This document shows, in pieces, positions 36,389 through 46,449 of a stretch of 64,000 bases of DNA. Position 1 is the first letter of the stretch. The number at the start of each line of letters is the position of its first letter. The notes under the pieces were generated by a model. That model saw nothing but the letters and a program-made list of their open reading frames with translations, was not told where the DNA came from and made no database searches. A program made the translations under genes and the position numbers. Source of the stretch: Enterococcus silesiacus (GTDB lineage: Bacteria > Bacillota > Bacilli > Lactobacillales > Enterococcaceae). Where the stretch lies: positions 2,976,001-3,040,000 of the forward strand of contig CP013614.1 in NCBI GenBank assembly GCA_001465115.1, read 5' to 3'.

Positions 36389-36400
36389 TTAGAGAAGAAA

Positions 36401-36453
36401 AAGAGTACAGGGTAAAACTAATTTTTTAGTTTTACCCTGTACTCTTTTTTTGT
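36401..36453. terminator. parB terminator
   Basis: AAGAGTACAGGGTAAAACTA (36401-36420) and TAGTTTTACCCTGTACTCTT (36427-36446) are perfectly complementary and followed by TTTTT. Confidence 0.95.
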
Positions 36454-37422
36454 GTTAAGAATTTTAAATGGTATAGGTCTTACTAGTTATTAAAATAGCT
36501 ATTTTTGTAATGGTTTTTTTATAAAAAACATTATATATAAAATAACTACTATTTTTCTTGTTTTTATATAAAATAAGAAAAATCTATAATTGTTTAAATT
36601 AGCCCTTATAGATATTGCTAAATAGATACCTAATAGTTAAATACTTATACATCGAGTATACAATAAATAATTTGGACATGTCAATGAGGAATGAAAAATA
36701 ACAATATATTTAATTTATCTATATTATGGCTGGCTGAGGGGATCAAATCATATATTTAACAATAAGACCTTGCTAAGCAGCTATGTGACCAGCTAAAACA
36801 TATCGTGAATTCTGACAGTATTTCTATAGTTTAACATGTAATACAACTTATAGTAAATTTACTTATTTTCATACGCCGTCAAATGAACCGTCAAATAAAT
36901 CAGCAAAAATCTTGATCGTAGTAAAAGAAATTAATGGTTTTAGCTATTACTATACGTAATATAAACAATAGTTTATTAATTGATTATGAGGAAAAAAGAA
37001 GATAATTAACGTAAGAAATATATATTGTGGTTGTACATTCTCGGTTTTTTAAATATAAAAAAGAATACTAAATCTAACGGTGTTTTTAGTCAATCCGTTC
37101 AGAATATCAATATTCGTGCATGAATAAACACGCTCTATTTATTTTATTAAAATATTATTTTTTAGAATAAATATTTATTTAAAATAGTTGGGTTAACCGT
37201 CATACAGCCGTCAGCATTCAACATAAAGAATTATTAAATCAGCTCACGTGTCAAATTTTTCTTATTTTATATAAGAATAGGAAATTCCTATTATACTAAT
37301 ATTTGCAGTTTTATGCGGTGCACGAGTTAAAACGTGTGTCACAGTCATCAGCCTGAGGAATCGCATCAAACATAAATGGTTGGAACTTACTATATAAAAA
37401 TTAAGAGGAGGATTTTCTATTT
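36454..37422. promoter_or_regulatory. Long AT-rich control region with CCGTCA direct repeats
   Basis: Nearly 1 kb without a convincing gene. Two pairs of direct CCGTCA repeats occur: 36876 and 36888 (12-base period) and 37197 and 37208 (11-base period). The spacing suits tandem binding of an OmpR-type winged helix such as the adjacent gene product. A candidate hairpin (TAGGAAATTCCTA, near 37290) and several -10-like boxes are seen. Base composition is lower in GC than the flanking core genes. Confidence 0.5.
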
Positions 37423-38250
37423 ATGAGGAAAAAAATTATTATATTGACCGACACATTAAGTGCAAATGGACTGTTGCAAAATAGTTTGTTAAATATGGAC
37501 TATGAAATAATGGTTTCAAAAGATATATTGACTCAACCTAAAGATAAAGAGTTCTATTTTCTGCAAAATTTTGATCTTATTATTTATCAACAGTCCATGT
37601 ATAGCGGATTAAAAGAGTCATTTCTGGATAATTTAGTATTACTGAACAAGCCAATTGTTGTTTTAACATTTGAATCAGAGCAGGTCAATAGCTCTAAGTA
37701 TTTGACTGATGCTAATGTGAGCTTTGTCCGCTATCCGATATCCGTCACTGATCTAGCAAGCAAACTAGCAGCGATCTTTGAAGAAACAGCTAGTCGTGTA
37801 GGGAAAAATAGTCAGGAAAGAACAGTTGATTCTTCTGGGGATAATGAAGCCTCTTCTAAAAATGCTTCATCTTTTTCAAATGTGGTTAAAGCTAAAAGAC
37901 AGTACTCATTCCAATTAAAGGACAGAACGTTGATTATTGATAATTGGTTGATTCCATTGACGAAAAAAGAACATCAAGTATTAGAGCATTTTATTGAGTC
38001 AGATCAAAGAGTTTTTTCTAGTCAGGCACTCTGTGAGGCAATCTGGGCCAATGCCCAACAAAAAAACAAACAGGCATTGTTGAGTAATCTGATTAATCGT
38101 ATCAAACAAAAAATTATGGAAAAAACCTCGATTTTTGAACCATTTATTTTAAATAAAAAAGGGATCGGTTATTACTTAAATCAAGAGTTCATAGCAATAG
38201 ATGAACAAAATGATGGGAAAACAAGAGAACTGCTGGTAGGCAGCGTGTAA
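37423..38250 (+). CDS. Winged-helix regulator with pseudo-receiver
   Basis: 275 residues. The first 125 fold like a response-regulator receiver (IIILTDTLSANGLL, FDLIIYQQSMY, RYPISVTDLASKL), but the acidic pair and the phospho-acceptor Asp are absent (Tyr/Gln in the acceptor place). A Ser/Asn-rich linker leads to an OmpR-type winged helix (about 170-250; LIPLTKKEHQVLEHFIESDQ, ending NKKGIGYYL). GAGGAGG is 11 bases before ATG. First gene of a block with four further plus-strand genes. Likely a phosphorylation-independent activator or repressor of the block; the target is inferred. Confidence 0.75.
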   Translation: MRKKIIILTDTLSANGLLQNSLLNMDYEIMVSKDILTQPKDKEFYFLQNFDLIIYQQSMYSGLKESFLDNLVLLNKPIVVLTFESEQVNSSKYLTDANVSFVRYPISVTDLASKLAAIFEETASRVGKNSQERTVDSSGDNEASSKNASSFSNVVKAKRQYSFQLKDRTLIIDNWLIPLTKKEHQVLEHFIESDQRVFSSQALCEAIWANAQQKNKQALLSNLINRIKQKIMEKTSIFEPFILNKKGIGYYLNQEFIAIDEQNDGKTRELLVGSV

Positions 38251-38289
38251 TTATGAGGAAAATGATCAGTAAGAAGGGGAGCGGGAGTA

Positions 38290-39078
38290 TTGGCGATATT
38301 TAACAAAAAAGGTAAAAAGAAAAGAGATCGCGATGATGATTATGAGGAATACTACGATGAGTATGACGAGTATGATGATTACGACGAATACGATGACGAT
38401 GAATTTGAAGAGGAAGTATATGAGCCTCCTAAAAAAAGTCGTCCAGAAACTTCAACTAAAAGAGAGCGCGCAGAAAATAATATGAGAAAACAAGAGCAAG
38501 AGATACAACAAGAGCAAGCCGCTGTAATTGACCATTTAAATAATGAGAATCAACAATTTCAAAAAGAAATGCAGCGTCAAAAAACCATGGCGGAACGCCT
38601 GAAAGCAGAAGTCGAGAACAAGCAACAAGAAATCGATCAATTAACGATGCGTTTAACAAGTTCATCTAAGTCTAAAGAAAGAATTCTTGCTCTAGAAGAT
38701 CAAGTGAACCGATTAGAAGAGTTGAGAATACAACTAGATGAACAATTATTAGAGGAACGAAACAAAAGCATAGAGACTGAAAAGCAACTACGTCAGCAAG
38801 ATTTAATGAAAAATCAAATTGCAGAAGTCTTGATGGAAGCCAAAGAAAAAGCACAACAAATCATTGAACGGGCAACTATCGAAGCTGATCGAGCAGTAGA
38901 AACTGCCAGACACGAAACTAAAAAAGCTGTTTCAGAAGCTTCAACCGAGTTAAAAATGATTAACCAGGAAGCTGCAAATTACCATACACGAATACTTCGA
39001 CTACAAAGTGAAACGAGTGTATTGATGGAAGACCTATTAAGCAAATCCAGCCGATTAGCAGACCAGTCACTGGACTAA
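38290..39078 (+). CDS. Acidic, DivIVA-like coiled-coil protein
   Basis: 262 residues starting with TTG after AAGGGGAG. Residues 1-8 are basic (MAIFNKKG-KKKR), then about 35 residues are nearly all Asp, Glu and Tyr (DDDYEEYYDEYDEYDDYDEY and on). The rest is a long coiled coil (about 60-235) rich in Glu/Gln/Lys, including EVLMEAKEKAQQIIERA, reminiscent of DivIVA/GpsB-type proteins. No membrane segment or signal. Its acid segment is opposite in charge to the tail of the membrane protein at 40459, suggesting binding. No known family name. Confidence 0.7.
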   Translation: MAIFNKKGKKKRDRDDDYEEYYDEYDEYDDYDEYDDDEFEEEVYEPPKKSRPETSTKRERAENNMRKQEQEIQQEQAAVIDHLNNENQQFQKEMQRQKTMAERLKAEVENKQQEIDQLTMRLTSSSKSKERILALEDQVNRLEELRIQLDEQLLEERNKSIETEKQLRQQDLMKNQIAEVLMEAKEKAQQIIERATIEADRAVETARHETKKAVSEASTELKMINQEAANYHTRILRLQSETSVLMEDLLSKSSRLADQSLD

Positions 39079-39095
39079 GGGAAGGGGATTAAGGA

Positions 39096-40223
39096 GTGGT
39101 TTATCAAAATATTATGGTCGACATTTACCAAGCCGCTTCTCCAGCAGTAGGCGAGCGTCTTTTTGATGATGATATGCTGCGGGATATCTATTATATTTGC
39201 GAAGAGATTTTCCAAAAAAGAAATAAAAGAATCCCCTATCCACAAAAAGAAGTGGAAGAATATTTTGAAGAATTTCATACCATAATTTCTTTTTTCAAGC
39301 ATGTCGAGATTACTTTAGATTTTGTAGATCTTGATTGGTCAGCTGTGTTGGATGAGCTGATCCATACATTTCCTCAGATTGCCTGGATAGGTGGCTCCAA
39401 AGAAAAAGAAGATACTCGTGTCGTTTACTATATTGATTTTGTTCCCATCGCATATAGAGAAACTGGCTTTCCTTTCATGGTTAATCTTTTACAGTCGTTG
39501 GATCAGCAACTATTTGAAGGTGGAGACGATGTACTAGAATCCTTTGTTTATGAAATCGAGCAGCTTGTCGCTAAATTTATCAAACCTCTTAAGGTAGACA
39601 GCAAATCAACTGTAGAACAAGCCGAAGTGGTGGAGTATGAGGACAACAATGATGCTAGCTATTTGTTGAAGGTGGAAGAAGCAGTCAGCAGAGAACGGTA
39701 TGCAAAAGAGCGGATGCGACTTGCCAATAAAAAATTAGAAGTCGTAATCGATCAAATGGAACGGCAAAATTTATCTAGAGCTATGAAAGCATTAAGTAAA
39801 TCAGATAGTGATGAAAATGAGAATTGGGACCATATAGTAAAGGTCGATCTGAGAGAGTATTCCCAATTGTTACAAAAAGCCAAGTTCTTAGAGCAGTCTT
39901 GGATGATGAACAAAGAACTAATGACAAAATCTGAAAAAATGACGATTTCTGATAACCAACTGACATATGAAAGAGAACAGGTAAGAAGTTTCAAAGATTC
40001 AGTTTCTACAAATGAGATTTACTTGATTTTAGATGAATGTAAGCTGATTGAGTCAAGAGTGAAAATCAAAAAAAAATCTTGGTTTCGTCAACCTCATGTT
40101 CGAATCATGAAAATGGATTATGACAGTATCTTGAATAAAGCAGCATACTTCGATCTTATACAGGGAGAAAATTATTTACTTGAACAAATCGTGTTAAATG
40201 ATGAGTCAATTATTGATGATTGA
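39096..40223 (+). CDS. Hypothetical cytoplasmic protein of the accessory block
   Basis: 375 residues starting with GTG 8 bases after GAAGGGG, 15 bases after the preceding stop. Acidic, soluble. The N-terminal 150 residues appear globular (DIYQAASPAVGERLFDDDML; VVYYIDFVPIAYRETGFPF). The middle is coiled coil (RYAKERMRLANKKLEVVIDQ). No signal, membrane segment or known motif. Co-transcribed with the acidic coiled-coil gene. Function unknown. Confidence 0.65.
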   Translation: MVYQNIMVDIYQAASPAVGERLFDDDMLRDIYYICEEIFQKRNKRIPYPQKEVEEYFEEFHTIISFFKHVEITLDFVDLDWSAVLDELIHTFPQIAWIGGSKEKEDTRVVYYIDFVPIAYRETGFPFMVNLLQSLDQQLFEGGDDVLESFVYEIEQLVAKFIKPLKVDSKSTVEQAEVVEYEDNNDASYLLKVEEAVSRERYAKERMRLANKKLEVVIDQMERQNLSRAMKALSKSDSDENENWDHIVKVDLREYSQLLQKAKFLEQSWMMNKELMTKSEKMTISDNQLTYEREQVRSFKDSVSTNEIYLILDECKLIESRVKIKKKSWFRQPHVRIMKMDYDSILNKAAYFDLIQGENYLLEQIVLNDESIIDD

Positions 40224-40458
40224 CATATGCCTTTCTTAATTGACTAAAAGAACAAAGTGGATTGGGAATAGTCGGCTTTTCCCATCCATCACTACATACA
40301 AAAAGACACTATCAAGAAGATTAAAAAGAAAATCAATCGGAGTAATGGTTTGAAAGTAATCGGTTGACCAGAATTTTCATTTCGTTTTCGTAGTTGTTAA
40401 GTCTGATTTTTTTCAAATACATACATATGATTTCATTATGCAGGGAGCTTAAAATTCA

Positions 40459-41646
40459 ATGATTAATAAACGGAAAATACTTCGCCTGATTATTGCAATA
40501 ATAGGATCTTTTCTTTTACTGTTGACATTTATGATAGTCAACATGAAAGTCGGATTGGCTGTTTCAGTGAAGCCTATTTTACCAAACAATCAGCATAATC
40601 CAGAGGCAACGTATTATGATCTTAGAATGGAACCAAATCAAGAACAAGATTTGGCGCTGGAATTAATCAACACCTCTGATAAAAAACAACAGGTTACTTT
40701 GCAAATCAATGACGCTACAACCAATGAGATAGGGGATATCGATTATTCAGATCGCTCAAAAATCGTTGTGAGAGATAAAAGCCTCAAGTTTGGGTTGAAA
40801 GACATTGCAAGCTCTGAGTCAGAAATTACAATACCAGCTCATGAAACAATGACAACAATAGTACATCTAAAAATGCCTCCTAATCAATTCAATGGCATGA
40901 TTTTAGGGGGAATCAAAGTTGTTTCATCAGAAAAAAGTAATGGGGAGCAGACGTCTACTAATCAGCAAGATCACGCGCCAAAGACATATATCGTCGCTGT
41001 AAAATTAACAGAAACAGATACACCTATTACGGCAAATTTGAATTTACTAGGTGTTTTTTCTGTGAAAGAGTCAAAAAAAAATAGTATAAAAGCAACGATC
41101 CAAAATGATCAAGCTATCAATTTGGAAGATATCGAACTTACAGCGAAAGTCTATGAAGAAAACTCAGATAAGCTATCTTTTCAAACCAAATTAACAGGGT
41201 ATCGTATGGCACCTAATTCAAGTCTGACTTTTATTATCAATAAGGAGAATCAGGTGCTTCAACCTGGAAACTATCAGATTGCGATAGCTGCGAAATCTAA
41301 AGCGACTAATCAGGAATGGCAATGGGATGAGGAACTGAGAATTACGCAAGCTGAAGATAAAGAAAAGGACAATCTTGCAATGAGTAAAGAGAGCATCATG
41401 TTTTACACGATTATTTTTGTAAGTACATTTGTGGCATTATTGTTACTCTTGTTAATTTTACTGATCTTAAGAAAGCGTAAAGAAAAGCGTTATGCCGAAG
41501 CGTTGTATCACAAAAACAAAGAGCGGGAGCCTAATAATAAAAATCCTAAAAGAAAAAGAAAATCTGAAGGAAATAAGAGTGACAGTGTGAGGAGAAGACG
41601 CTCTGCGGAGTCTAAAAGACAAAGAAAGTCAACTCCTAACAAGTAG
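40459..41646 (+). CDS. DUF916/DUF3324 (WxL-interacting) membrane protein with basic tail
   Basis: 395 residues. A signal-anchor helix (LIIAIIGSFLLLLTFMIVNM), then the DUF916 peptidoglycan-binding domain (YYDLRMEPNQEQDLALELIN, RDKSLKFGL), then DUF3324 (about 170-300; YIVAVKLTE, LNLLGVFSVK), then a transmembrane helix (FVSTFVALLLLLLILLIL). This layout is that of WxL-interacting proteins that hold WxL proteins at the wall. The cytoplasmic tail of about 58 residues is rich in Lys and Arg (KNPKRKRKSEG, SVRRRRSAESKRQRK) and longer than usual. No WxL protein is encoded in the window. GGGAG precedes ATG. Confidence 0.85.
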   Translation: MINKRKILRLIIAIIGSFLLLLTFMIVNMKVGLAVSVKPILPNNQHNPEATYYDLRMEPNQEQDLALELINTSDKKQQVTLQINDATTNEIGDIDYSDRSKIVVRDKSLKFGLKDIASSESEITIPAHETMTTIVHLKMPPNQFNGMILGGIKVVSSEKSNGEQTSTNQQDHAPKTYIVAVKLTETDTPITANLNLLGVFSVKESKKNSIKATIQNDQAINLEDIELTAKVYEENSDKLSFQTKLTGYRMAPNSSLTFIINKENQVLQPGNYQIAIAAKSKATNQEWQWDEELRITQAEDKEKDNLAMSKESIMFYTIIFVSTFVALLLLLLILLILRKRKEKRYAEALYHKNKEREPNNKNPKRKRKSEGNKSDSVRRRRSAESKRQRKSTPNK

Positions 41647-41752
41647 TGACTAAGCTTGGGTGATAGAATTGAGGACCAGAAATTGATCAAACAATGTCTT
41701 TAGAGCATAAACAACAGGTTTATCAGTATAGAGACTTTAGGAGTTGGAGGAT

Positions 41753-42988
41753 ATGAATGAATCAGAGCAACACACCCAAAAACAGGAAAAAAGAATAATC
41801 AAAAAATATATTCTCCATCAAAAAGTCAATCCTAGACTTTTAGGAGTAGAACTTTACAATAAGCATTTAGATACTCCAAACGAGGCGTATCTATCATGTA
41901 AATTGATTTTTAAAAAAGATGTTCGATCATTAATGGAACTTGAGCGGATGGCTAACAAGATATATGAAACATGGACCGAAAAAAACGATGAATTAATTAT
42001 AAAAAAAATCAATGTTTTTACATCTACAGCGTACATTGTTTTGACCTTTACCATAGGTTTTTATGAAGAGACTCAGGTAAAACGTTTACGGGAACTAAAA
42101 GAATGTGCTAAAGAAATTATTGAAACCTATGACAATATACTCAAGCAAGAAAAAGAAGCTGAGTATAAAAGAAAAGAAGCTGAAATTTCTGGAGTATTAG
42201 AAAAATTCAGTCAGTTGACTGAGAAAATGGACGGGTTAGAAGATCGACTTACAAAAAATGAATCAATTGTTTTAGACTCTGGGGAGCAGTTGAAAACAGA
42301 ACTTACAAAAGTCAGCCAAACAATCAAAGAACAGTTGGGTCAAGGAGAATACAAGTTAAAAAGTATTCCAAATTATTCTGAAAAAAAAGAACAAGCAGGA
42401 ACAAAAATAAAATTAAGTAGTATAAATAAAAATCATTCAAATAAAAAAATCATAAGTTCAGAAAAAATTATAGTAAGTAAGTACAAACTTGATCGAGCCA
42501 AACAAGGTTCTGTGGCTTTACAAGTGAAAGTCTGGCCATCAAATTGGCTCCAGCAAAAAAAAAGAATTAACAGAAAACCAACGAAAAAAAACGAATTAAA
42601 AAGGTATGTGTCTAAGGTTGAGTTGGAAGTTTTAGCTTGTTTTACACGAAGCGAAGAAGTAAATAAAAAACGAATGGTACCCAAAAAACAATTTTTGGAT
42701 TTAAAAGCTAAAGTAGAATTTATCGATTATTTATGGATGTTGTTGGAGTTAGAAGGAAAAGAAGAAATCATCATTGCTGGTAAACTAAGTTGTAGAGAGT
42801 TGATTGAAGAGTTAGGTCAATTTATGGATAGTGTAGAAAAAGTTGCAACAGGTCCAACAATTTTTAGTTACTGGGTATATTGTTCGCAAGAGCTCTTGGT
42901 CAAATTAGAAGGATATGCAGCACTAAAAGATTTTTTAAGCAGTTCCTTAAGGCTAAGCAACAATCTACTAGTTAGTGAAGCAAGATGA
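41753..42988 (+). CDS. Hypothetical protein of the accessory block
   Basis: 411 residues from ATG 41753; AGGAG is nine bases upstream. N-terminal 100 residues appear globular (VNPRLLGVELYNKHLDTPNE, TSTAYIVLTFTIGFY). A coiled coil follows (about 110-205), then a basic linker (KRINRKPTKKNELKR), then a helical C-terminal domain. No membrane or signal. No family recognised. Reads in the same direction as the upstream DUF916 protein and could be part of a membrane-linked complex. Function unknown. Confidence 0.65.
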   Translation: MNESEQHTQKQEKRIIKKYILHQKVNPRLLGVELYNKHLDTPNEAYLSCKLIFKKDVRSLMELERMANKIYETWTEKNDELIIKKINVFTSTAYIVLTFTIGFYEETQVKRLRELKECAKEIIETYDNILKQEKEAEYKRKEAEISGVLEKFSQLTEKMDGLEDRLTKNESIVLDSGEQLKTELTKVSQTIKEQLGQGEYKLKSIPNYSEKKEQAGTKIKLSSINKNHSNKKIISSEKIIVSKYKLDRAKQGSVALQVKVWPSNWLQQKKRINRKPTKKNELKRYVSKVELEVLACFTRSEEVNKKRMVPKKQFLDLKAKVEFIDYLWMLLELEGKEEIIIAGKLSCRELIEELGQFMDSVEKVATGPTIFSYWVYCSQELLVKLEGYAALKDFLSSSLRLSNNLLVSEAR

Positions 42989-43366
42989 TTTGAAAAAGGG
43001 GTAGTGTGCAAGAAACTAGAACAGTTTCAGATGTATCATGCCTTTTTCTTTTGCTTTTAATATTATACAAATAGTATTTGTATAACAAAAAAAATGGATA
43101 TCAGACTTCCAAATATTTTCTTTATTTCTAAAATTTTTGAAACGAATTAAAAAAGATAATCATTCATACTTGGTTAAGAAAACTAAACGTATTGTAAGAT
43201 TGTCGCTTAGTTTAGTTGGGAGTAAATAAAAAGTGGATTTAAATACATTAATTTTTAATAAAATGATTTTCCAAAATCTAAAAATAACATAAATGTATTT
43301 AAACGTTTGGAGACATTTCTTTTTTATTGAATGAATAAAAATAATATTTTAGAAAGGATCTTAGTT
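42989..43366. promoter_or_regulatory. Inverted-repeat-rich region upstream of the recombinase
   Basis: ATACAAATA and TATTTGTAT (near 43064-43083) form a perfect palindrome with a one-base centre. TTTAAATACATT (43238-43249) and AATGTATTTAAA (43292-43303) are perfect 12-base inverted arms 42 bases apart. AAACTAA (about 43180) and TTAGTTT (about 43207) are a third pair. No gene. These could be arm-type binding sites or operators of the adjacent recombinase. Confidence 0.5.
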
Positions 43367-44470
43367 ATGGCAAGAAGAGGAGAAAATATCTATAAAAGAA
43401 AAGATGGGCGTTGGGAAGGCCGATACATAAAAGGTAGACAAAAGAATGGAAAAATCCATTATGGTTATATTTATGGATACAAGTACACAGAAGTAAAGCA
43501 TCAACTTATCTTGGTGAAATACGAAAAACAGACAAGCAATAGCAAAGATCTTCTTCCTTACGAGGGTCACTTAACGGATTGGACGAATTATTGGTTGGAT
43601 ACATTTGTCCGTCCTAAAGTGAAAAGCAGTACGTATGCTAGCTATAAAAATAAAATGGAAGTACACGTTTTATCAACAATAGGTTCGATCAAGCTGCAAA
43701 AGCTAAAACAATCAGATGTTGATACTTTACTTAAAAAAATGGATGAGACGCTTAAAGCCAGTTCGATTAGATCAATCTTTTCAGTCTTAAAAAATTGCTT
43801 GAGTAAGGCCATCTCTTTAAATTTATTGTCAGAAAATCCCTGTATAGGAGTGGAACTTCCAAAAACAAGAAGAAAAACAGTGCAAGCATTATCGGTCAAA
43901 GACCAAGCAAGATTGGTGAAAGAAGTAAACAGTAGTCAGAAATTTTTTTCTATCATGCTCGCTTTGCAGACGGGACTACGAATTGGAGAGATTTGCGGTT
44001 TAAAATGGGAAGACATTGATTTTGACAACAACACATTAGGTGTCAATCGAACTGTGCTGAGAATTCAGACGGAAGATAATGCTGGAAGAAAGACAGAAAT
44101 CGTGGAGGTTACTCCAAAGAGCAACAACTCACAACGAAAAATCCCGATTACTAACGCGTTAAAGGAAAATTTGTTAGAGCTTCAAAAAACGTCAACTAGC
44201 GAGTATGTTATTTCCAATAAACATAAAGCGTTGGAACCTCGTACAATCGCCTATCGTTTTCAAATAATTCGAAAAAAGATTGGCTTAGAAAAATTTTCTT
44301 TCCATTCTTTGAGACATACCTTTGCTACGCGATGCTTGGAAGCGGGAGGAAATATTGCAACAATAAGTTCTCTATTAGGTCATTCTTCAACAAAAATGAC
44401 GCTGGATTGTTATACAAACTCATTTTTTACAGAAGAGCGTCAATTGATGGAAAAGCTCGAATTTGTTTGA
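43367..44470 (+). CDS. Tyrosine-type site-specific recombinase (integrase)
   Basis: 367 residues from MARRGENIYKRKDGRWEGRY; GAAAGGATC is six bases upstream; an ATG 36 bases earlier has no ribosome site. N-terminal AP2-like arm-binding region, SAM-like core-binding domain (LTDWTNYWLDTFVRP), then the catalytic domain: Arg in TGLRIGE, His-x-x-Arg in HSLRHTFATR, His in LGHSSTKM and Tyr in CYTN. All catalytic residues are present. No excisionase or other mobile genes are near, so it looks solitary. It may move or invert the neighbouring block. Confidence 0.93.
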   Translation: MARRGENIYKRKDGRWEGRYIKGRQKNGKIHYGYIYGYKYTEVKHQLILVKYEKQTSNSKDLLPYEGHLTDWTNYWLDTFVRPKVKSSTYASYKNKMEVHVLSTIGSIKLQKLKQSDVDTLLKKMDETLKASSIRSIFSVLKNCLSKAISLNLLSENPCIGVELPKTRRKTVQALSVKDQARLVKEVNSSQKFFSIMLALQTGLRIGEICGLKWEDIDFDNNTLGVNRTVLRIQTEDNAGRKTEIVEVTPKSNNSQRKIPITNALKENLLELQKTSTSEYVISNKHKALEPRTIAYRFQIIRKKIGLEKFSFHSLRHTFATRCLEAGGNIATISSLLGHSSTKMTLDCYTNSFFTEERQLMEKLEFV

Positions 44471-44524
44471 TTCAAAAAATTACGACTAACCTTGTTGTGG
44501 TAGACGATTGACATATGTTGTAAG

Positions 44525-44560
44525 GTCTGAGAAGTAGCTCGAAAAGCCGCTTCTCAGATT
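44525..44560. repeat. Hairpin between recombinase and Mga-like gene
   Basis: TCTGAGAAG (44526-44534) and CTTCTCAGA (44550-44558) with a 15-base loop. No long T-run on either side, so terminator activity is uncertain. Confidence 0.5.
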
Positions 44561-44596
44561 AAACATGGTTTTGTTAGCAGCATGTTTTAGTAGTAT

Positions 44597-46108
44597 TCAA
44601 CGATTAGAAGAATAAATATCATATAACAATTGGTCAAGATCAGAGATATCTTTTTTTTCTTTGTAATTGGTCATAACGAAAAAGTGTTTTCCCCTCTTTT
44701 TCAAATGAGCGCAGTCTACATTACTAATGATTAAATCATAGAGTTGGTTATCGGCTAAAGGTTCTGCTTGTGCAAATGTAGACGACTCAATATATTTGAT
44801 CCACCAGTCCGTAAATTTTTTTTTGCGTAAGAGGTCACTTTCAATAAATATACCGACAGATACTTTTGTTTTGATGCATTCCTCGTAAAAACTTATCGCA
44901 TGAGCATATTTTGTAATAAGCATGATGTCGTGCGTATCATCTACAAAAATTCCTGGAAAACACCCTTTTAAATAGTTAGCAAAAGCGTTAACAATTTCAG
45001 CGTGTTCGCTTTTTTTCCACTCAGGATAATGGAGTTCCCAATAGTAATCAATTGTTCCTTTGAATATTAAATGGCGATATCCGATAGAATTTAAATAATA
45101 ATGGAGCGTTGCACGTTGTGCTTCGTTTAGGTAAGAAGCTGGATAACAGTTATTCATAAAATTTAAAAACTCTGTATTCAATCTCCTAATAAAAAACTTA
45201 CTGTATCGTTCAACTAAATCAATTTCTTTTAAGCAGTGAGAATGACTAGGGATGATTTCTTCGCCAAACATGAAGAGGAGCAAAAGGATGGTTTCATTAG
45301 GAGGCATTTTAAAGGAGTAATAAACTAGAAATGCCCCAAGTATTTTATTGACTTTTTTGAAAAGGCGAGTGTTTTTAAGCGCATTTATAAATTTCTTTTG
45401 GCCGCTAATGTCTGATTGGTTGTTGAAGAAGGGCTCCTGATCACTATAATCTTGGACATTTTTTTGAGCATTTCTCCTTTTTAATAGGCTTAAGTAGATG
45501 ATAAGTTTTTTTCGAGCAAAAATAGAAATTGAGCTGCCTAAGCTTTGCTGAATGCGATTGACTGTTTCATAAATTCTGGGGTCGATATGAGGGCTTTTTA
45601 ATTGGTGCTTAGGATCTGTGACTAAGTAAAGAGAGACATAAAAAAAACGAACTTGCAATTCGGAACCTAGCAAATGGCCGTTTTGGATGGATAAGTCGAA
45701 TTCATTTAATAAGGCATTCAATTCGTTGATTTTTCTAAAATAAGTTGAGTGACTAATTCCAATTTTTTCACATAAACGGGTGACATCAATCGTGCCGCAA
45801 AGCAGCAATTCTTCTAGAATTTTGTATTTTGGGGCGTGGCAAATCAACTCATTATATAAAGTGTGAAGGGAGTAATCAGGCTTTGTGTGAAAAGTAATGG
45901 TATGTTTGTTTACTTCGATAGCAAATCGGTTATTCGAATGTTTGGCTGATGTTATCAACCCTTCAATCAGCTTTGACAAAAAATAATTTCCAATATCTAA
46001 GTGGTGCAAAAGGTCTTTTTTTGTTGCAGTACCACCAACATTGCTTAAATGTATTAATAAGTCAATTTGATAAACTTCTAATTTTTCTAATAAGTCAAAT
46101 TTTCTCAT
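44597..46108 (-). CDS. Mga-like transcriptional regulator
   Basis: 503 residues. Helix-turn-helix domains near the start (TATKKDLLHHLDIGNYFLSK) and near 105-125 (IDVTRLCEKIGISHSTYFRK), followed by a long helical region, as in Mga/AtxA-type virulence regulators. PRD-like segments and an EIIB-like end are expected in the family but are not clear here. Enterococcal relatives often control surface proteins. It is convergent with the recombinase and ends the accessory block. AAAGGAG precedes ATG. Confidence 0.8.
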   Translation of the reverse strand: MRKFDLLEKLEVYQIDLLIHLSNVGGTATKKDLLHHLDIGNYFLSKLIEGLITSAKHSNNRFAIEVNKHTITFHTKPDYSLHTLYNELICHAPKYKILEELLLCGTIDVTRLCEKIGISHSTYFRKINELNALLNEFDLSIQNGHLLGSELQVRFFYVSLYLVTDPKHQLKSPHIDPRIYETVNRIQQSLGSSISIFARKKLIIYLSLLKRRNAQKNVQDYSDQEPFFNNQSDISGQKKFINALKNTRLFKKVNKILGAFLVYYSFKMPPNETILLLLFMFGEEIIPSHSHCLKEIDLVERYSKFFIRRLNTEFLNFMNNCYPASYLNEAQRATLHYYLNSIGYRHLIFKGTIDYYWELHYPEWKKSEHAEIVNAFANYLKGCFPGIFVDDTHDIMLITKYAHAISFYEECIKTKVSVGIFIESDLLRKKKFTDWWIKYIESSTFAQAEPLADNQLYDLIISNVDCAHLKKRGKHFFVMTNYKEKKDISDLDQLLYDIYSSNR

Positions 46109-46449
46109 AGCAAAACTCCTTTAAATGTCAGTATTGAAGTAAGGTATAGCGAAACTAGAGAGGTTATAGTCAATATTTTTCTTCTAAAAGCTCAACTGTA
46201 TTCTTACGTTGACATTGTGATTATTATCTAACATCTATAAAGTAAATACAATCTTATTTAAGCTGATTTATTTTTCATTTTTTGAGAAATACCTTTATTT
46301 ACTACTTGTATTTTATTAGTAAATATATAAAAAAGTAGAATCAATAAAATAGTTTTGCTTGATCGTCTAAAAAATGGTATTGTATCTTTGTATGTTTATG
46401 TCTGATTTTATGAAGATTGATGACTATTTTTAGAAGGGATATGTCTGTT
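46109..46449 (+). promoter_or_regulatory. Promoter region of DUF951-ychF
   Basis: TTGCTT (46355-46360), 17 bases and TATTGT (46378-46383) form a plausible promoter ahead of the DUF951 gene. The remainder is AT-rich and holds no recognised gene. The right end of the accessory block should lie in this stretch. Confidence 0.5.

Follow-up and report, generated by a model that had tools for sequence, protein, structure and literature searches.

The question raised by this locus is what a tyrosine recombinase does beside a set of surface-linked genes that lie between parB and the DUF951-ychF pair of Enterococcus silesiacus. We analysed a stretch of 64,000 nucleotides (nt) of contig CP013614.1, hereafter the window, which lies within a 3.93 Mb Enterococcus chromosome and whose closest named relative is E. 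crotali (gene C 96% identical). The block in question is about 10 kb long and holds seven genes, to which we give short names: A (a regulator), B (an acid coiled-coil protein), C (375 amino acids), D (a WxL-interacting protein, WxLIP), E (414 amino acids), int (the recombinase) and an Mga-type gene. All seven had been described in a sequence-only reading of the window, and the list of open reading frames (ORFs) and our family searches confirm them. Judging by the DNA around them, we think that genes A to E are quite likely a phase-variable surface operon under the control of site-specific DNA inversion.

The evidence begins in the gap between parB and A (36389-37422; 1.03 kb, 26-29% G+C), where the earlier reading was silent on both inverted recombinase sites and a promoter. 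A repeat search found a left core site of 30 nt (36554..36583, plus strand) that is 90% complementary to a right core site (37255..37284, minus strand), and between them lies an AT-rich inner segment of 671 nt (36584..37254), which is the part proposed to invert. These inverted sites are present in all 17 genomes that carry the block, with arm-to-arm distances of 500-763 nt and extension scores of 20-30, compared with a maximum of 17 in 680 dinucleotide-type shuffles (0/680 as strong). Both arms are palindromic around a short spacer, as tyrosine recombinase core sites are. The arm centres match within every genome, even where species differ from one another (plantarum, moraviensis, 5H, termitis), while the outer halves of the left and right arms are unequal in most genomes, yet conserved by side. 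Agreement of the arm centres within a genome is what strand exchange there would need.

The inner segment carries a sigma-70-like promoter sequence, TTGACA-18-TATACT (36655..36684, minus strand), which has one mismatch to the consensus and is conserved in 17/17 genomes. It faces away from gene A, i.e., towards parB and a terminator-like hairpin that follows it (36398..36449; arms of 24 nt that pair perfectly, flanked on each side by A/T runs), which is also visible at the same place in an alignment of the gap and would insulate parB from the switch. The inner segment has one orientation in all 17 genomes, two pairs of which show an extra short minus-strand match (34-39 bits), and because this orientation is shared, all 17 sequenced genomes would be OFF. 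In several genomes, weaker plus-strand promoter matches (two mismatches) lie close to the left arm, and there may be a basal promoter near A.

We picture the switch as follows. The two palindromic core sites would bound an invertible segment of 0.7 kb between parB and A, and the sequenced state would be OFF, with the segment's promoter aimed at the terminator behind parB. Recombination of the two sites by int, whose gene closes the operon, would turn the segment round, after which the promoter would read A-B-C-D-E (the ON state). The receiver-like winged-helix regulator A would then set the output, D would be placed in the membrane and wall as a WxLIP, and B and C would act inside the cell.

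The int gene itself (43331..44470, plus strand; PF00589) is conserved in 17/17 genomes, and by eye its product has the residues R217, H325, R328, H351 and Y361, presumably the R-H-R-H-Y catalytic motif of tyrosine recombinases. Members of its family at an E-value of 1e-70 or better occur in 4 of the 17 genera within Enterococcaceae and in 37 of its 105 genomes, and the own genome has at least nine members at 1e-60 or better among the matches listed. Inverted sites around int itself in the window were considered and rejected, as scores there are 9-13 (26 rows, representing 16 distinct window-type genes).

Seven other int genes of the own genome all lie within inverted sites, with scores of 14 to 30, the lowest of which (14, at locus L144; L and G numbers denote the loci and genomes compared) is within reach of chance. 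Each of the seven is followed by an A-like regulator that reads the same way, and WxLIP homologues follow int at five of these loci (L144, L145, L147, L149 and L151); two proteins of L144 have a WxL domain. The site at L147, which flanks another int of the own genome, differs from the left arm of the window by one mismatch over 26 nt. The int segment with this near-identical core site (L147 8000-9580) lies at 1.815 Mb of the own genome, and cross-talk or large inversions between it and the window are possible.

There were two wider surveys. The first covered 47 int genes, i.e., seven of the eight others in the own genome and the 40 best-scoring non-window matches listed from 17 other genomes; one own-genome int (1345484-1346575) and L150, which has a box but no int, were left out. 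Inverted sites scoring 17 or more surround 40 of the 47, compared with 1 of 940 shuffles, while the other seven score 9-16, three of them below 14. An A-type neighbour was found at 31 of these 47 loci using three A-type queries, which makes the count a lower bound. The other set had 78 int ORFs, of which that of L082 was skipped because it is cut off, and the remaining 77 rows represent 16 window-type and 44 other distinct genes. Among these 44, 33 lie between inverted sites scoring at least 17 (0/1540 shuffles) and 39 reach at least 14, the 99th percentile of the shuffles; three of the five below 14 are at contig ends (L083, L103 and L106), and two are not (L085 and L095).

DNA between such sites has been inverted at sister loci of the same recombinase family. 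For example, when L089 of E. pallens is compared with L084 of Enterococcus sp. 665A, the right flank aligns on the plus strand at 95% identity and the short left flank also on the plus strand (88 nt, 81%), while 1643 nt between them align on the minus strand, with the two sites as breakpoints. The same inversion, again with breakpoints at the sites, separates L089 from L092, and L055 from both L045 and L051. Flipped loci are rare: among distinct loci with sites, 37 of 39 lie one way and two (L055 and L089) the other, and in the 47-gene survey 31 of 31 lie one way. Type IV pilus-type loci have a promoter-like site diverging from int (TTGACA in 4/4; TAGAAT in 3/4, with TAAGAT in L061), as do six E. 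pallens-type loci (TTGC, 17 nt and TATAAT in 6/6). Because these promoter-like sites diverge from int, the rare orientation at the sister loci would be the ON state.

A further motif accompanies the recombinase. The direct repeat CCGTCA-N6-CCGTCA (36876..36893, plus strand), a candidate arm-type recombinase site, was seen in none of 100 shuffles of the window, and the same motif search found a second repeat, CCGTCA-N5-CCGTCA, at 37197..37213 (plus strand). Genome-wide there are 14 instances of CCGTCA-N4..7-CCGTCA and none of the reversed pattern, and 13 of the 14 fall in the window segment or in an int segment. We infer from this distribution that the repeats may be arm-type sites of the recombinase. 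L150 (position 8473; 3.559 Mb of the own genome) holds one CCGTCA direct repeat that has no int close to it. We also considered the repeats as boxes for regulator A; this idea is weakened, though not settled, by their accompanying int segments.

Several observations weigh against an inversion switch at this locus. The window-type int lies outside its sites, unlike its relatives, so another recombinase, such as that of L147, might act in its place. No inverted copy of this segment was found among the 17 genomes, so inversion here might be slow, or the switch locked or dead. The promoter is recognised by its fit to the consensus, the set that we call copy-2 loci has TATACT in 7/7 without a good -35 at normal spacing, and the roles given to B and C come from gene neighbourhood only. 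The shared orientation of the 17 assemblies and the unusual position of int would also suit a fossil or locked switch, with the operon normally regulated from a promoter near A and int kept for some other task. We consider this unlikely, as int is kept at 80-95% identity across related loci while D and E drop to about 50-60%, the promoter and sites are conserved in every carrier, and, where the sequence varies between species, the two arms of any one genome still match. Moreover, the segments of other int genes also lie nearly always one way, yet flipped ones exist.

If the repeats were instead attachment sites, the block would be an integrated mobile element that the recombinase had inserted beside parB. 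Genomes with an empty site (see below), additional strange DNA adjoining the block in both E. crotali and G005, and the Tn916-type integrase look of the recombinase are what such an element might leave. However, the block occupies one place in all 17 carriers, and its repeats are inverted and on one side of the cargo, so they would invert 0.7 kb, not excise the block. No excision or transfer genes are among the block ORFs, a result that does not extend to att sites at the ends of the insertion. We therefore disfavour this explanation as very improbable. Least probable of all is a role of the inverted sequences as operators for A, or as an RNA or transcription feature. The arms are palindromes sized like a regulator site, and OmpR-type proteins bind repeats, but a near-identical palindrome flanks int at L147, and DNA between such palindromes has been inverted at sister loci. 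The CCGTCA boxes, too, follow int and not A: they occur at 12 of the 13 int loci in the 47-gene survey that have sites scoring at least 17 but no A-like neighbour found by the three queries. An inversion switch thus remains our preferred explanation, and of the earlier proposal that the recombinase carries or switches the block, we keep the switching, to which the inverted sites, the promoter and the flipped sister loci point, and drop the carrying, given the single place in 17 genomes and the lack of inverted sites around int.

How the block came to lie beside parB can be judged from related genomes. Counting the own genome, 17 genomes carry it among the 22 compared for the genus, and its seven-gene order is identical in 16/16 related loci (L021-L036). 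At 14 of the 16 loci the block could be followed out to parB on one side and DUF951 on the other; L029 begins after parB at a contig end, and L036 shows other ORFs next to the Mga-type gene. The five genomes without the block (G004, G011, G014, G016 and G021) have only more distant copies of C, located elsewhere. Among 14 genomes checked for an empty site, DUF951-ychF directly follows parB in eight (L237 and L242-L248), seven of which belong to other genera of the family, and two (G005 and G007) have the block in between; in G004, G011, G016 and G021, DUF951 was not seen within 1.5 kb after parB, the only stretch covered. E. faecalis is not singled out by name in this comparison. The block is an old insertion, fixed in one clade, because carriers share one place and order while other genomes have an empty site, and this agrees with the earlier statement that it was inserted between parB and DUF951-ychF. 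By eye, transposase-like ORFs separate the Mga-type gene from DUF951 in E. crotali (L065 17207-18615).

Genes B (38290..39078, plus strand), with an acid N-terminus and a coiled coil, and C (39096..40223, plus strand), an undescribed protein with an alpha/beta N-domain and a coiled coil, form a pair that is not confined to this block. C matches no family above the cut-off, and hydropathy shows no membrane segment in either protein. A B-type protein is encoded upstream of C, on the same strand and within 2.6 kb, for 83 of 84 distinct copies of C, and within 400 nt for 65 of these; the lone exception starts at a contig end. DivIVA/GpsB was considered as an identity for B and dropped: there is no Pfam DivIVA match, and the NCBIfam Wag31 model gives 10.3 bits against a cut-off of 260. 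The sequence-only reading had called the system cytoskeleton-like, a term that we do not retain, as there is no such family above cut-off and no convincing fold match.

The company of the pair varies. One copy, the copy-2 pair (as in L041), adjoins a LysM-glucosaminidase and is shared by the whole set of 22 genomes from the genus, and in four genomes an int-B-C-A-type-glucosaminidase series stands ahead of a type IV pilus-like operon (L038 in G004, L039, L040 and L061) with two T2SSE ATPases and an N-methylation-motif protein. At E. pallens-type loci, whose families were tested in L107 only, the pair is accompanied by int, signal peptidase I, a glucosaminidase, a SipW-type peptidase, three BsaA-type proteins and an LPXTG protein. 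A scan of species genomes found 69 B-C loci, all with titles of Enterococcus or of Lactobacillales metagenome-assembled genomes, including 12 in E. pallens, 16 in sp. 665A and 9 in sp. 669A. E. faecalis and E. faecium are absent from the 69, in a scan that needs exact conserved peptides and may miss distant copies. The E. pallens loci are L078, L086, L089, L092, L094, L095, L098, L099, L102, L107, L110 and L115, and an int ORF adjoins B in 11 of these 12.

Because of this company with wall hydrolases and with fibre or pilus operons, we guess, with more doubt than conviction, that the B-C pair works in the cytosol and assists in placing or assembling envelope structures. The neighbourhoods also bear on the earlier view of the five plus-strand genes as one module. 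They do stay together in 17 genomes, as a surface-linked operon kept as a unit, in line with that view. However, the B-C pair also turns up at further places in different company, which is in part the kind of independent occurrence that the earlier reading named as refuting its view, so the five are better seen as a B-C pair with locus-specific partners than as something indivisible.

Promoter inversion by tyrosine recombinases is already well known; examples of such invertons are the flagellar switch of Clostridioides difficile with RecV, its cwpV, and fim of Escherichia coli. The present locus resembles them in its segment with a putative promoter between inverted sites, its linked tyrosine recombinase and the surface genes downstream, and differs in host group and cargo. 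It also differs in that a receiver-like winged-helix regulator follows the switch, in CCGTCA repeats near the segment ends that resemble integrase arm sites, and in sister loci that have int within the inverted segment. The look of int is that of Tn916-type integrases, which use core and arm (DR2) sites; the two are alike in domain order, palindromic core sites and paired direct repeats, but here a short resident segment would invert rather than an element excise.

WxL (csc) gene clusters contain a WxLIP, according to two papers (PMC10599100, PMC2530867), and gene D is a full WxLIP (PF06030 plus PF11797). The block differs from such clusters in having no WxL protein, two or three cytosolic proteins in its place, and an apparent inversion switch. 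SipW/BsaA matrix loci (TIGR04090) are approached by the E. pallens-type L107, which has B-C, SipW, BsaA-type proteins and an int segment; the window lacks SipW and BsaA and has in common with L107 only int, sites, A-type regulators and B-C.

In searches of the openly licensed PMC literature, none of the papers listed linked promoter inversion with WxL or enterococcal surface operons. As far as these searches show, inversion ahead of enterococcal WxL and related surface clusters, genus-wide, would be new, as would the B-C pair and a layout in which sister loci have int within the segment but this locus has it beyond the sites. A tentative but serious possibility is that many separate recombinase flip switches, mostly OFF in culture, run much of the surface of a large group of non-faecalis enterococci (WxL, WxLIP, type IV pilus-like and SipW/BsaA systems), and that B-C is a new cytosolic machine shared by unrelated surface systems for assembly or placement. 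If so, several independent switches would give the cells within an enterococcal clone unlike surface make-ups, and these systems would be missed in laboratory cultures that are mostly OFF. B-C offers a defined target: two nameless proteins that stay paired next to surface systems of four kinds.

Gene A (37423..38250, plus strand) is a winged-helix regulator of OmpR type (Pfam Trans_reg_C, PF00486, 42.1 bits) with a receiver-like N-terminus from which, by eye, the acceptor Asp seems absent. The own genome has 17 A-type regulators and 9 int genes, so some of these regulators are probably without a switch. D (40459..41646, plus strand) matches DUF916/DUF3324 with 117.2 and 102 bits and has a signal peptide-like start and a C-terminal membrane segment, seen in hydropathy as two hydrophobic stretches, at the start and near the end; a Pfam search found no WxL domain among the block proteins. 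The Mga/EbpR/MafR-type regulator (44597..46108, minus strand; 138.5 bits to NCBIfam NF053736, whose cut-off is 130) is conserved with the block in 17/17 genomes.

E (41744..42988, plus strand) matches no family above the cut-off and has no membrane segment by hydropathy. We found 33 homologues, and the gene is at this locus in 16/16 relatives checked; as far as seen, it is confined to this kind of locus. A profile comparison of E with C found no similarity. In an AlphaFold model of E, which is of poor quality, the chain opens with strand-helix-strand-strand and continues as a long coiled coil, an arrangement similar to that of C. Two proteins of C and E type (P0116 and P0150) are filed under 'Erwinia sp. 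CPCC 100877', an assembly that is likely mislabelled or mixed.

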